Assembly (NCBI RefSeq): GCF_003732545.1 | Contig: NZ_AYKF01000068.1 | Location: forward strand, 1 to 54,949 | DNA: 54,949 bases | From: Salinisphaera orenii subsp. halophila YIM 95161 | GTDB lineage: Bacteria; Pseudomonadota; Gammaproteobacteria; Nevskiales; Salinisphaeraceae | Direction: 5' to 3' | In this document: positions 14,654-21,199 of the stretch, one piece after another | Position numbering within the stretch: the stretch's first letter is position 1 | How the letters are laid out: each line of letters starts with the position of its first letter | Translations under genes and position numbers: made by a program | The notes under the pieces: generated by a model | The model's database searches: none | Told to the model about the DNA's origin: nothing | Seen by the model: only the letters and a program-made list of their open reading frames with translations

Positions 14654-15529
14654 TCAGGCGCGCTCGAGCCGGTCCGCGGCGTCGGCCAGACTCTGGCGAT
14701 GGCGGTCGATATCGGCCCAGGGGCAGTCGCGCTGGGCCAGCCGGCGAAAGATATTGCCGATATGGAAACGGCGCGGGCCGAGCTTGGCGTCGCCGAGTTC
14801 GTCCCAGTCCAGCGGGGTGGCGATCGGCGCGCCCGGCTTGGCGCGCACAGAATACGGCGCGATGCCGGTCTGGGCGTAGGCGTTGCGGCGGATATCCAGA
14901 TACAGCCGCCCGCCGCGCTTGGCCTTGCGATGGGCGGTGGTGAAATCGTCGGGGCGCGCGTCGGCGAGCCGCTCGGCCACCCGCTCGGCGAAATCGCGCA
15001 CGGCGTCGAAATCCGCGCTGCGATCCAGCGGCACGACGACATGCAGGCCGGACGAGCCGGTGGTCATCACGAACGCGCTCAGATCGAGCGCGGCAAGGCG
15101 CTCGCGCACCGCCCTGGCGGCGTCGACCACGAGCGCGAAATCGTCGTCCGCCGGATCCAGATCGAAGATCAGCCGGTCCGGATGATGCGGGCGATCATGG
15201 CGCGACAGCCACACGTGAAAGGCGATCGCGGCCTGGTCCACCAGCCAGACAAGCGCATCGGCGTCGTTGGCCAGCGCGTGGGTGATGCGGCCGTCCTCCT
15301 TGTCGACGGTCACGCGCTCGATCCAGTCCGGGTAGTGATCGGCGACGCTCTTCTGGATGAAGTTCACGCCGTCGATGCCGTCGGGAAAACGATGCAGGGT
15401 GAGCGGCCGATCCTTGAGATGCGGCAGCATCGTCGGCGCGATACGGCGGTAGTAGTCGGCCAGATCGCCCTTGCTGTAGCCGGCCTCGGGAAAGAACGTC
15501 TTGTCGGCGTTGTCGATCTGGATACGCAT
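14654..15529 (-). CDS. LigD-type primase/polymerase domain as a separate protein
   Basis: A 291-residue archaeo-eukaryotic primase fold protein, equal to the POL domain of bacterial LigD. It begins IDNADKTFFPEAGYSKGDLADYY. It carries the RLIFDLDPADDDF motif with the two metal-binding aspartates and the MTTGSSGLHVVVPL motif near residue 155. In non-homologous end joining this domain adds ribonucleotides and fills gaps at broken ends. It lies 10 bases after the ligase gene stop in the order phosphoesterase-ligase-polymerase, which is the domain order of single-chain Pseudomonas-type LigD. Nothing looks truncated; start and stop agree with a free-standing domain. Confidence 0.9.
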   Translation of the reverse strand: MRIQIDNADKTFFPEAGYSKGDLADYYRRIAPTMLPHLKDRPLTLHRFPDGIDGVNFIQKSVADHYPDWIERVTVDKEDGRITHALANDADALVWLVDQAAIAFHVWLSRHDRPHHPDRLIFDLDPADDDFALVVDAARAVRERLAALDLSAFVMTTGSSGLHVVVPLDRSADFDAVRDFAERVAERLADARPDDFTTAHRKAKRGGRLYLDIRRNAYAQTGIAPYSVRAKPGAPIATPLDWDELGDAKLGPRRFHIGNIFRRLAQRDCPWADIDRHRQSLADAADRLERA

Positions 15530-15539
15530 GGCGGACTCC

Positions 15540-16550
15540 TCAGGTGCGCGCCGGGGCGACTTCGCGCACGACCTCGCGCGGGTCCTTGTCGTCGCGCTCA
15601 CCGACATAGCTGGGGTGGCGCAGGCGCCCGTCCTCGGTCCATTCGGTGAACGCGACCTCGGCCACGCGTTCGGGCTCGACCCAGTGCACGCCGCGCTCGC
15701 TCGGCGCATCCGCGAATGGCGGCGTGGCCCGTTCGAGGGACGCCAGCACGTCATGCAGGCGCGTGAGTTCCGCCTCGTCGAAACCGGTGCCGACACGCCC
15801 CGCGTAGCGCAGCGCATCGTCCTCGTAGTAGCCCACGAGCAACGCGCCGAAGCCGCTGCGGCTGCCCTGCGGCTCGGTGTAGCCGCCGATCACCAGCTCC
15901 TGGCCCTGGCTGCACTTGAGCTTGAGCCAGCGCTGGGAGCGCCCGCGCCGATACGGGCTGTCGGCCTGCTTGGCGAGCACGCCCTCCCAGCCCTTGCGAC
16001 AGGCCTCGGCGTGATAGGCCTCGCCGACGCCGTTACGGTGGGCCGCATAGCGCAGCCGGCCGCCGAAGCTGAAATGCCCGCGCAGCAGGTTCTTGCGATC
16101 GCGCAGGGCGACCCGGCGCAAGTCCAGGCCGTCCAGCCAGGGGCAGTCGAAGGCATAGAAATGGATCGCGATACCGCTGTCGCGTGCGGCCTGCGGCTCG
16201 CTGATGCCGGCGCGTTGTTGCAGCCGCGCGAAACTCGTTGCATGGCCATCGAAGGCCACGACCTCGCCGTCGAGCACGAAGCGCCGGTGCGGCTGGGCCG
16301 CGAACGCATCGACCAGCTCCGGAAAATGGTCGTTACGCGACTGGCCGTTGCGGGTGAGCAACTCGACGTGATCGCCGTCGCGAAACACCAGCAGACGGAT
16401 GCCGTCGAACTTGCGCTCGAACAGCCAGTCGTCGTCGGAGAACGGCGTATCCGCGAGCGTGGCCAGCATCGGCTCGAAATGACGCGGCATGCGCGAACGC
16501 CGCGCCACGTCGAGTACGTGGTCGGGCAGTTCGTCGCGCCAGTCAGCCAT
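15540..16550 (-). CDS. ATP-dependent DNA ligase, LigD LIG domain as a separate protein
   Basis: A 336-residue ligase. The adenylated lysine is K47 in ERKFDGIR (KxDG motif I). Motif III-like VLDGEVVAFD, motif IV GWEGVLAKQ and motif V WLKLKC follow. An OB-fold comprises roughly the last 110 residues (ELVIGGYTEPQGSR onward). It seals nicks after end processing. Its ATG overlaps the phosphoesterase stop by eight bases, so translation is coupled. Together the three genes rebuild a full LigD. No ku gene is seen in the window. Confidence 0.9.
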   Translation of the reverse strand: MADWRDELPDHVLDVARRSRMPRHFEPMLATLADTPFSDDDWLFERKFDGIRLLVFRDGDHVELLTRNGQSRNDHFPELVDAFAAQPHRRFVLDGEVVAFDGHATSFARLQQRAGISEPQAARDSGIAIHFYAFDCPWLDGLDLRRVALRDRKNLLRGHFSFGGRLRYAAHRNGVGEAYHAEACRKGWEGVLAKQADSPYRRGRSQRWLKLKCSQGQELVIGGYTEPQGSRSGFGALLVGYYEDDALRYAGRVGTGFDEAELTRLHDVLASLERATPPFADAPSERGVHWVEPERVAEVAFTEWTEDGRLRHPSYVGERDDKDPREVVREVAPART

Positions 16551-17163
16551 CGCCGTGGCCCTCGTCGCGCACGATGTCGTAGAGTTCGCGGTCGCTGATC
16601 ACCGACGCCGGCTCGGTGTTGACCGGGTTGCGGCGCGCGTCGGCGCGGTCGTCGTCCATCTTGACCAGCAGCCACTGGCGCTTGCCCTTCTGGGTACGAA
16701 AATGGGTGAGCGAATAGCCGCCGGCGATCTTGTGCCCGTACAGCGTGACGGTGAGATGGCCGTCGTCGAAGCACTCCGCCAGGGTCTTGTCGATCTCGCC
16801 GTCGTCGTTGCGTTTCGCGTTGTTGAACGTGCCCGTATCCCAGACCAGCACGGTGCCGCCGCCGTACTGATCGTCGGGAATGGTGCCCTCGAAATCGGCG
16901 TAGTCGAGCGGATGGTCCTCGGTCTCGACGGCGAGGCGCTTGTCGCGCGGGTCGGTCGACGGGCCCTTGGGCACCGCCCAGGACTTGAGCACGCCGTCGA
17001 TCTCGAGCCGGAAGTCGTAGTGCAGCGTGGAGGCGTCGTGCTTCTGGATCACGAAGATCGGCGTCTCGTCCTTCGCGCTGCGCCCCGCCTCGCCGCGCGG
17101 CTCGGGGCTGCGCTCGGGGTCGCGTCGATCACGATACTGCCGGAGCTTGTCATCGCGGGCCAT
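16543..17163 (-). CDS. LigD-type 3'-phosphoesterase domain as a separate protein
   Basis: A 206-residue protein equal to the PE domain of LigD. After a charged N-terminus of about 35 residues comes FVIQKHDASTLHYDFRLEID, whose His and Asp residues bind the metal. LKSWAVPKGPS and the DYADFEGTIPDDQYGGGTV segment with a metal-binding His just before it (EDHPLDY) follow. The domain trims 3'-ribonucleotides and 3'-phosphates at breaks. It is first in the three-gene minus-strand operon and diverges from the cytosine deaminase gene. Confidence 0.9.
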   Translation of the reverse strand: MARDDKLRQYRDRRDPERSPEPRGEAGRSAKDETPIFVIQKHDASTLHYDFRLEIDGVLKSWAVPKGPSTDPRDKRLAVETEDHPLDYADFEGTIPDDQYGGGTVLVWDTGTFNNAKRNDDGEIDKTLAECFDDGHLTVTLYGHKIAGGYSLTHFRTQKGKRQWLLVKMDDDRADARRNPVNTEPASVISDRELYDIVRDEGHGDG

Positions 17164-18971: not shown

Positions 18972-21059
18972 TCAGTCCCAGAGACGGCGCGCGGCCGCGC
19001 CGACGTCGAGGGCCGCGCGCAGCGAGGCCGGTGCGGCGGCCGACACTGGCGCGTCGACCGGCGTGCCGACATCGCGGGCACTGAAACAGGCACGTACCGC
19101 GGGGGTCATGAAGCGGCTGATCGCGCCGTAGACGTGGCGATCGCCCAGGCGGCGCTGCTCGGTCACGTGGTAGCGCAGCGGCGAGACCACCTCCAGCACG
19201 TTCCGCGCCCGCGTGAAGGCCACGTACAGCAGCCGGCGCTCCTCCTCGAGGTCGGCCGGCGAGCGCGCGGTGTACTCGCTCGGGAAGGTGCCGTCGGCCA
19301 CGTGAAGCAGATAGACGCTGTCGAACTCCCGCCCCTTGGCGCTGTGCACGGTCGACAGCACCAGATAATCCTCGTCGAGGTGGGCGTCGTCGTTGTGGTC
19401 GCCGGTGGCCGCCGGCGGATCGAGTGTGAGCTCGGTGAGAAACCGGTCCCGATCGCGGTAGCGAGCGGCGATGCGCACCAGATCGTCGATGTCGCCGGCG
19501 CGCGCCGTGGTCGGCGCCTCGTAGCGGTCGGGCAACTGCGCCTTGAGCCATTCCGCGGCCGGCTCCAACGTCGCCGGCCAGCCCCCCGCGCCCTCCGCCA
19601 GAGCCGCCACGGTATCCACCAGCCCGCACCAGGCCTCGGCGTCGGCCTGCCGGGGCGCCGGCTGCCGACCGAGCCTCACCAGCGACCAGTCGTCGGCCTC
19701 CAGCCGTTCGAACGCGCGTTGGGCCGAGGCCGGGCCGACGCCGGGCACGATCTGCAGCGCGCGGTACGCCGCGATCTGGTTTGCCGGGTTGGCCGCCCAG
19801 CGCACCAGCGCCAGCAGGTCCTTGACGTGGGCGGCGTCGAGAAACTTCAGGCCGCCGTACTTGCGGTAGGGAATGTCGCGCCGGACCAGTTCGATCTCCA
19901 CCTCGTTGGCGTGGTGGGCGTTGCGGAACAGCACCGCCTGCTGCTTGAGGGCCACGCCGGTCTCGCGCCGGGCCAGCACCTGCTCGATCACGTGGCGGGC
20001 TTCGTCGGCGCCGTCGTGGGCGATGATATGACGCGGTCGCAGGCCGGCGCCGCGCGCGCTCGCGAGCTGCTTGTCGTAGCGCCGCGCGGCGTCGGCCATG
20101 AGCGTGTTGGCCGCGTCCAGGATCGCCTGGGTCGAACGGTAATTGCGCTCCAGCCGCACCACGCGCGCACCGGCGTACTGGTCCGCGAAGCCTAGAATAT
20201 TGTCGACATCGGCGGCCCGGAAGCCGTAGATGGCCTGGGCGTCGTCGCCGACCACGCACAACCCGGCGCCGGTCGGCGCCAGGCCGCGCAGGATCTCGGC
20301 CTGCAGCAGATTGGTGTCCTGATACTCGTCGACGAGCACGTGATCGAAGCGCGCGGCCAGACCGGCCGCCAGCCCCGGCTCGCGCATCATGAGCGCCCAG
20401 TGGAGCAGCAGATCATCGTAGTCGAGCAGCGCCAGATGCTGCTTGCGCTCGGTGTAGTGCGCAAACAGCCGCTTGAGCGCATCGTGATGGGCCACGCACC
20501 AGGGAAAACGCGTCTCGAGCACGGCCGCGAGCTTGGCCCGCCGATTGACGACCTGGGAGTAGATGGCGAGACACGTGTCCTTGCGCGGGAAACGGCGCGT
20601 GCGCAGCGCGAGACCGAGCTGCTGACGGCAGACATCGATCAGATCGGCCGCGTCCGCGCGGTCCAGGATCGAGAAGTTCGGACTCAGGCCGAGCGCCGGG
20701 GCGTATTCGCGCAACAGGCGGGCGCCGATCGCGTGAAACGTGCCCGCCCAGGGCAGCGACACGGCCTGACCGCGACGCCCGCGCGCCGCCAGCGCGGCGT
20801 CGCAGATGCCGCGGGCACGCCGGGTCATCTCCTCGGCCGCGCGCCGGGAGAAGGTCAGCAGCAGAATCCGGCGCGCGTCCACGCCGGACAGCACCAGATG
20901 GGCCGCGCGGTGCGACAGCGTCTGCGTCTTGCCGGTCCCCGCACCGGCGATCACCAGCAGCGGATCGCTGGTCAGCCCCGCGGCGGTATCGGGCCGGGCG
21001 AAGGTCACCGCACTGCGCTGGCGTTCGTTGAGATCCTCGAGATGGGCGGTGTCGGTCAT
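18972..21059 (-). CDS. UvrD/Rep-like superfamily 1 DNA helicase
   Basis: A 695-residue ATP-dependent 3'-5' helicase. Motifs in order: LNERQRSAVTF (Q motif), AGAGTGKT (Walker A, near residue 36), LLLTFSRRAAEEM (Ia), DEYQDTN (Walker B), VVGDDAQAIYGFRAA (III), VRLERNYRST (IV), STVHSAKGREFD (V) and LLYVAFTRAR (VI). The C-terminal tail is short. It resembles stand-alone UvrD/Rep/PcrA proteins, with no fused nuclease domain. The protein could be a second helicase beside housekeeping UvrD. I chose the ATG at 21059; an ATG 54 bases upstream is in frame. It diverges from the aminotransferase gene. Confidence 0.88.
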   Translation of the reverse strand: MTDTAHLEDLNERQRSAVTFARPDTAAGLTSDPLLVIAGAGTGKTQTLSHRAAHLVLSGVDARRILLLTFSRRAAEEMTRRARGICDAALAARGRRGQAVSLPWAGTFHAIGARLLREYAPALGLSPNFSILDRADAADLIDVCRQQLGLALRTRRFPRKDTCLAIYSQVVNRRAKLAAVLETRFPWCVAHHDALKRLFAHYTERKQHLALLDYDDLLLHWALMMREPGLAAGLAARFDHVLVDEYQDTNLLQAEILRGLAPTGAGLCVVGDDAQAIYGFRAADVDNILGFADQYAGARVVRLERNYRSTQAILDAANTLMADAARRYDKQLASARGAGLRPRHIIAHDGADEARHVIEQVLARRETGVALKQQAVLFRNAHHANEVEIELVRRDIPYRKYGGLKFLDAAHVKDLLALVRWAANPANQIAAYRALQIVPGVGPASAQRAFERLEADDWSLVRLGRQPAPRQADAEAWCGLVDTVAALAEGAGGWPATLEPAAEWLKAQLPDRYEAPTTARAGDIDDLVRIAARYRDRDRFLTELTLDPPAATGDHNDDAHLDEDYLVLSTVHSAKGREFDSVYLLHVADGTFPSEYTARSPADLEEERRLLYVAFTRARNVLEVVSPLRYHVTEQRRLGDRHVYGAISRFMTPAVRACFSARDVGTPVDAPVSAAAPASLRAALDVGAAARRLWD

Positions 21060-21199
21060 GTGCCCAGTCTCGCCCCGGCGGTGGGTCAGATCACGACCCG
21101 GCGCGCTCGGCAACCGCCTCGGCGAGCGGTTAGACTACGAACCGAACACAGGCGGCGCCCGGCCCGCGCGGGCCCGCATTCAACGAGGAACGAAAGCGC

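Follow-up and report, generated by a model that had tools for sequence, protein, structure and literature searches.

Stand-alone LigD-type enzymes without Ku in Salinisphaera: a co-inherited PE-LIG-POL operon that may serve Ku-independent gap and break repair

Ku and LigD are commonly regarded as a single system. In fused LigD, such as that of Pseudomonas aeruginosa and Mycobacterium, the 3′-phosphoesterase (PE), the ATP-dependent DNA ligase (LIG) and the primase-polymerase (POL) are domains of one chain, in that order. It is already published that many organisms encode these parts as separate genes within an operon (available passages of PMC4797286 and PMC5663958), and the separate NHEJ set of Methanocella paludicola has Ku in its core complex (PMC4797286). 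Sharda et al. 2020 found LigD without Ku in 619/5973 genomes, 90% of these LigD-only genomes being without POL and PE; the accessible part of that survey does not link the lack of Ku to a stand-alone lineage, and it files PE-POL without LIG as NHEJ-negative (PMC7719229). Mycobacterial LigC/Prim-PolC complexes perform excision repair, and with a one-nucleotide gap LigD and Prim-PolC co-purify while Ku does not (excerpts of PMC5663958). Furthermore, the LigD ligase domain has 5′-dRP lyase activity, and a Ku-independent role of LigD has been proposed (excerpts of PMC4770248). In the open-licence literature we found no report of a Ku-free stand-alone lineage, nor of LigD in Salinisphaera.

We analyzed a 54,949-nt stretch, the window, of NZ_AYKF01000068.1 from Salinisphaera orenii subsp. 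halophila YIM 95161 (GCF_003732545.1, here G000), in which the original prediction had described LigD parts as three separate, intact genes. This description is confirmed (Table 1): the genes follow the LigD domain order, each open reading frame has its own start and stop, the start of LIG overlaps the stop of PE by 8 bases (16543-16550), and POL begins 10 bases past the LIG stop (spacing 15530-15539). The list of open reading frames gives POL as 14654-15817 owing to an earlier in-frame ATG within LIG, and we prefer the start at 15529 because the TIGR02778 match begins at residue 3 and relatives agree. The prediction's view that a frameshift was unlikely is also borne out, and sequencing errors joining the frames at the junctions are excluded because the same separate frames recur, in the same order and place, in eight other genus members. 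By-eye alignment of the region upstream of PE in 8 species showed no clear common motif. Among the neighbors, the transporter-like gene occupies the same locus in five other genus members (88-99% identical), and most of the genus loci read have the helicase in the vicinity of the triple. A Bacillota bin (L096) also has a related helicase close to its POL.

Table 1. Features of the window, with Pfam and NCBIfam matches (NCBIfam scores in bits, with cut-off)
Feature	Position	Strand	Matches and basis
Site between ybaK and the transporter-like gene, empty; its G003/G005 counterpart holds a ku-ku-fused-ligD cassette	12801..13141		gene positions
Transporter-like, hydrophobic protein, 476 aa	13142..14572	+	no Pfam or NCBIfam match at 1e-3
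POL, stand-alone LigD-type primase-polymerase, 291 aa	14654..15529	-	PF21686 (2.2e-93); TIGR02778 (276.3, cut-off 214.7)
LIG, stand-alone LigD-type ATP-dependent DNA ligase, 336 aa	15540..16550	-	PF01068 (1.8e-29), PF04679 (3.2e-32); TIGR02779 (304.3, cut-off 227.75)
PE, stand-alone LigD-type 3′-phosphoesterase, 206 aa	16543..17163	-	PF13298 (1.7e-43); TIGR02777 (210.7, cut-off 144)
UvrD/PcrA-like helicase	18972..21113	-	score far under PcrA and UvrD cut-offs

The solved chains closest to PE and POL both come from the separate NHEJ set of M. paludicola (5dmp at 170.8 bits for PE; 5dmu at 311.4 bits for POL, compared with 176.6 for 2iru). The catalytic residues of PE, in a numbering that we take from P. 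aeruginosa LigD, are invariant in 10/10 genus rows (H42, H48, D50, R52, H84, Y88). Invariance extends to LIG K47, E189, K194, K210 and K212 (11/11 rows), mapped by alignment to residues listed in the available text of PMC4770248, and to POL D123, D125, D212, K10, K20, R47, P49 and F57 (9/9 rows), where the wedge residues were mapped from PMC4797286, also seen in part. Across phyla the residue pattern is the same with few exceptions; PE H42, for example, is present in 19/21 three-gene rows (one gap, one Y). The catalytic residues of all three proteins are intact, and POL also keeps its 5′-phosphate-docking residues.

Like the Methanocella genes, the Salinisphaera genes are separate and operonic, and for PE and POL, which this comparison covers, the proteins belong to the same lineage in both trees; unlike Methanocella, G000 has no Ku match (PMC4797286, available sections). 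The set shares with fused LigD its three domains, their order and their catalytic residues but consists of three chains without Ku, and it lies on the opposite side of the PE and LIG trees, with weaker support for POL. Set against archaeo-prokaryotic NHEJ, PE, LIG and POL with intact catalytic residues are all there, but the genome gave no Ku match. LIG scores 304.3 bits on the LigD ligase model and 141.1 bits (cut-off 296) on NF006078, which we take to be the LigC model. POL aligns to the 350-residue 6sa0, presumably Prim-PolC, only up to residue 303 of that chain, where POL nearly ends. Mycobacterial LigC/Prim-PolC is similar in pairing a stand-alone POL with a ligase, and offers the proposed parallel for Ku-independent gap repair (PMC5663958, in excerpt); unlike it, the Salinisphaera set has PE.

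The absence of Ku, originally noted for the window, extends to the whole assembly: a PF02735 search of the G000 genome (3,791,007 bases, 98.66% complete) gave 0 matches, with a positive Bacillus subtilis control. Ku calls throughout rest on PF02735 searches and a rebuilt KU HMM; an apparent Ku-LigD fusion in L206 was an antisense match of an earlier KU HMM and was discarded. Among 14 genus members, Ku was found in Salinisphaera sp. NP40 (G003) and Salinisphaera shabanensis E1L3A (G005) and not in the other 12. Nine of the 14 have the full triple: G000, G003, G005, S. hydrothermalis C41B8 (G006), G007, G008, a record labelled Endozoicomonas sp. G2_2 (G009), S. orenii MK-B5 (G012) and G013. In all nine it is at the same locus, adjoined by a divergently oriented deaminase gene, and G012, the nearest to G000, has 94-99% protein identity there. 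The triple is vertically inherited within the genus, and 7/9 full triples are in Ku-less genomes, including the single-contig, 99% complete G008. The other five genomes have PE and LIG with a broken POL (G001); LIG, a PE with an internal deletion and a POL stub (G002); LIG and a PE fragment without POL (G011); PE and POL without LIG (G004); or none of the three (G010, 87% complete). Since parts are broken or lost in G001, G002, G011 and G004, the set is dispensable. LIG alone is intact at L059 and L060 (G002, G011), where PE and POL decayed, so it may have a use of its own.

In G003 and G005, the transporter-like gene and ybaK are separated by a cassette of two ku genes and a gene for a fused LigD of 880 residues, all reading in one direction, opposite to that of the triple. 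Both the window and G009 have an empty cassette site, which in the window gave no ku or fused ligD match. Ku in the genus belongs with this other, fused LigD, apart from the triple, and since it goes with a cassette that the window lacks, nothing indicates that the triple once had its own Ku in the genus. Tandem pairs of adjacent, diverged ku genes occur in Salinisphaera, Alcanivorax and two Gemmatimonadetes bins (L041, L042, L203, L204, L205), adjoining a fused LigD at L041, L042 and L203, and possibly make a two-subunit Ku.

Nei-Gojobori estimates of dN/dS, with P by Fisher test, indicate that each gene of the triple is under strong purifying selection in two Ku-less species, G006 and G008 (PE 0.155, LIG 0.136, POL 0.083; each P < 1e-15), so the proteins are in use without Ku at least there. 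For G000 and G012, which differ by few changes, dN/dS is 0.353 for PE (P = 0.016), 0.170 for LIG (3e-08) and 0.274 for POL (0.021); six flanking genes range from 0.077 to 0.323, and LIG and PE evolve no slower than certain of them.

The original prediction offered two histories for the separate genes, one in which they precede fusion and one in which a fused gene came apart afterwards. We built quick maximum-likelihood trees of each part with fused LigD, with SH-aLRT support only; the trees are unrooted and show separation, not whether the stand-alone or the fused state came first. In the PE tree, 32 stand-alone rows stand apart from 16 fused ones (support 99). In the LIG tree, 21/22 stand-alone rows group together (support 97); the exception is L080, an atypical ligase encoded on the opposite strand, and a tree constrained to unite all 22 is not rejected (p-AU 0.459). 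The POL tree separates 44 stand-alone from 26 fused rows at support 89, which is not starred. L030, a fused row whose genome is 62% complete, and M. tuberculosis POL have long branches and a marginal placement. In the PE and POL trees, Methanocella groups with the stand-alone rows. By these trees the genes belong to a stand-alone lineage distinct from fused LigD, less firmly for POL, and three unrelated origins, which would have told against the prediction, did not appear. Forcing the Salinisphaera stand-alone POLs into a clade with the fused LigD POLs of the same genus was rejected (p-AU 3.2e-05), and with it the idea that the triple arose when the fused LigD of a relative split late. Later splits or truncations occur as well, since four POLs encoded separately (L061, L163, L170, L178) are placed within the fused group. 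The genomes of these are mostly Ku-bearing (G113, G290 and G416 with Ku, G354 without), and Ku absence therefore tracks lineage, not splitting as such. At L061 (6750-10060; G113, a 1.4-Mb genome), Ku, PE, LIG and POL form one row of separate frames, with LIG spanning two overlapping frames; this is a separate, later split that retains Ku.

Among the best 80 of 569 confirmed relatives in named genomes, the POL reading frame is separate from LIG in every case, and PE, LIG and POL stand side by side in that order at 17 loci: five in Salinisphaera, five in Alphaproteobacteria (two in Stappiaceae), three in Actinomycetota, and one each in Zixibacteria, Bacteroidota, Chlamydiota and a Thioalkalivibrio bin, one of the 17 (L079) with a weak PE match. 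In 608 plasmid records, the top two POL matches are on large Streptomyces replicons (54% and 49%), and the other 10 matches listed are about 40% identical; phage gave two weak POL matches, in unannotated records.

We next compared POL type with Ku across two evenly drawn samples, one of 398 genomes from the phylum and one of 385 from the class to which G425 belongs, using a Salinisphaera POL model (A1) and PF02735. Ku was found in 88/398 and 54/385 genomes, and 144 genomes in the union have POL, 12 of them common to both samples. Genomes with a Salinisphaera-type POL, defined as at least 299.9 bits on A1, had Ku in 0/7 cases, compared with 129/137 for other POLs (P = 2.9e-08, Fisher's exact test, which ignores relatedness; the cut-off was chosen once the scores were known and showed a break from 262.9 to 299.9 bits). 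By sample, P is 3.6e-05 (phylum) and 1.1e-05 (class of G425). The Salinisphaera-type POL lineage is thus associated with Ku absence in sampled Pseudomonadota. The seven genomes represent seven families, with PE-LIG-POL in G000, G425 and G849 and PE-POL pairs with no LIG beside them in G337, G181, G682 and G610. The eight Ku-less genomes among the others have fused LigD (G184, G471, G805), a separate POL (G267, G354, G872) or a fragment (G445), and include G636. One of these, G267 (262.9 bits), has a stand-alone POL on the stand-alone side of the tree and no Ku; moving it to the Salinisphaera type gives 0/8 against 129/136.

Ku absence is less uniform across named genomes. Among 50 of the best 80 (the 30 left out all being Streptomyces), 24 genomes with a Salinisphaera-type POL have Ku, 18/20 in Actinomycetota and 6/30 in all others. 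The actinomycetotal fraction therefore argues against a universal rule, and many Ku-less named genomes are bins, for which absence is weaker. In five of the six non-actinomycetotal genomes with Ku (two Salinisphaera, an Alcanivorax with a fused LIG-POL reading frame, a Gemmatimonadetes bin and a Dehalococcoidia bin), Ku adjoins its own fused LigD; the sixth is represented by a contig of only 3.3 kb. Within the stretches analyzed around the best 80, Ku occurs at three loci, two in Salinisphaera and L118. Broken LigD genes were seen at L182 (G234) and L063 (G032), with Ku likewise only as fragments in G234 and found on a different contig in G032; both are a fused system being lost.

Together, our results suggest, with a probability of roughly one half, that this is a working stand-alone LigD-type set, a co-inherited PE-LIG-POL operon of a lineage apart from fused LigD that acts in Ku-independent gap and break repair. 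That these long-separate enzymes occur without Ku in the related bacteria sampled points to a repair task with no need for Ku, and the Ku-independent route raised in the original prediction is the best reading of the data. By analogy with mycobacterial LigC/Prim-PolC, the set would most likely trim, fill and seal gapped DNA and single-strand breaks, such as the base-excision intermediates of cells that are not growing. PE would clean 3′ ends of 3′-phosphate and 3′-ribonucleotides, POL would dock on the 5′-phosphate across a short gap and fill it, and LIG would then seal; the intact opposite strand would keep the ends together throughout, so that under this proposal an end-bridging Ku would not be required. 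The PE-POL pairs without LIG in 4/7 sampled genomes are easier to reconcile with the processing of gaps than with machinery devoted to end joining. An all-against-all comparison of reading frames from 33 stand-alone loci was dominated by PE, LIG, POL and their antisense shadows; the next gene families occur in only 8/33 and 6/33 loci, at varied distances, and neither a shared base-excision gene nor a DNA-end-bridging protein was found in these 33 loci. Three points make gap and single-strand-break repair our best guess: some sets have no LIG, no extra gene is common to the loci, and the literature describes LigC/Prim-PolC repair and Ku-free binding of LigD at a one-nucleotide gap (PMC5663958). 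Counting against this proposal, the set is dispensable within the genus, LIG and PE evolve between G000 and G012 no slower than certain flanking genes, the 33 loci have no base-excision gene as a common neighbor, Ku accompanies a Salinisphaera-type POL in 18/20 named actinomycetotal genomes, and the Methanocella relatives work with Ku (PMC4797286, as excerpted).

An unlikely competitor is Ku-independent joining of double-strand breaks, in which POL pairs ends via short homologies, PE trims and LIG seals. PolDom can bring two DNA ends together without Ku, and the lysine of the 5′-phosphate pocket (K10) and the wedge arginine (R47) are retained in POL. Loop 1 and Loop 2 are also common to archaeal and mycobacterial POL (available passages of PMC4797286). 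However, nothing here indicates end-bridging activity, LIG is not beside the set in four of the seven sampled genomes, and the M. tuberculosis wedge residue F64 is I58 in all nine genus rows. Ordinary end joining with an end-binding protein encoded elsewhere and missed by PF02735 strikes us as improbable. A fixed HMM may miss a very diverged or unrelated protein, and a Mu Gam search of the genome gave no match with its control equally silent, but PF02735 readily found Ku in both samples and, beyond the three enzymes, no gene is common to more than 8/33 stand-alone loci.

The decayed copies in G001, G002, G011 and G004 could mark a relic, a former Ku-LigD system decaying since Ku was lost. Yet all three frames are open in 9/14 genus genomes, selection is strong in the Ku-less G006/G008 pair, and Ku in the genus accompanies a different, fused LigD at a site empty in the window, which leaves this explanation with a very small chance. 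A fused LigD recently split by frameshift, or an error at the junctions, would account for the shared PE-LIG-POL order but is contradicted by separate frames in 9/14 genus members and in other phyla and is excluded by the PE, LIG and POL trees; we give it practically no weight.

Whether these sets amount to a third branch of the LigD family is an even call: an old stand-alone PE-(LIG)-POL lineage in Pseudomonadota and other phyla, Ku-free and under selection in Pseudomonadota, coexisting in some species with a separately acquired Ku-LigD cassette, and with a job distinct from NHEJ and LigC. Genomes with LigD parts and no Ku have been counted before, as the "LigD only" class of Sharda et al. 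2020 (PMC7719229, accessible text), and surveys that require LIG overlook PE-POL sets. The presence of PE, LIG and POL does not imply NHEJ in a genome. A lineage with all LigD activities and no Ku provides natural test organisms for LigD enzymes acting alone, and what they do alone is the question raised by reports of Ku-independent LigD (PMC4770248, in the passages available).
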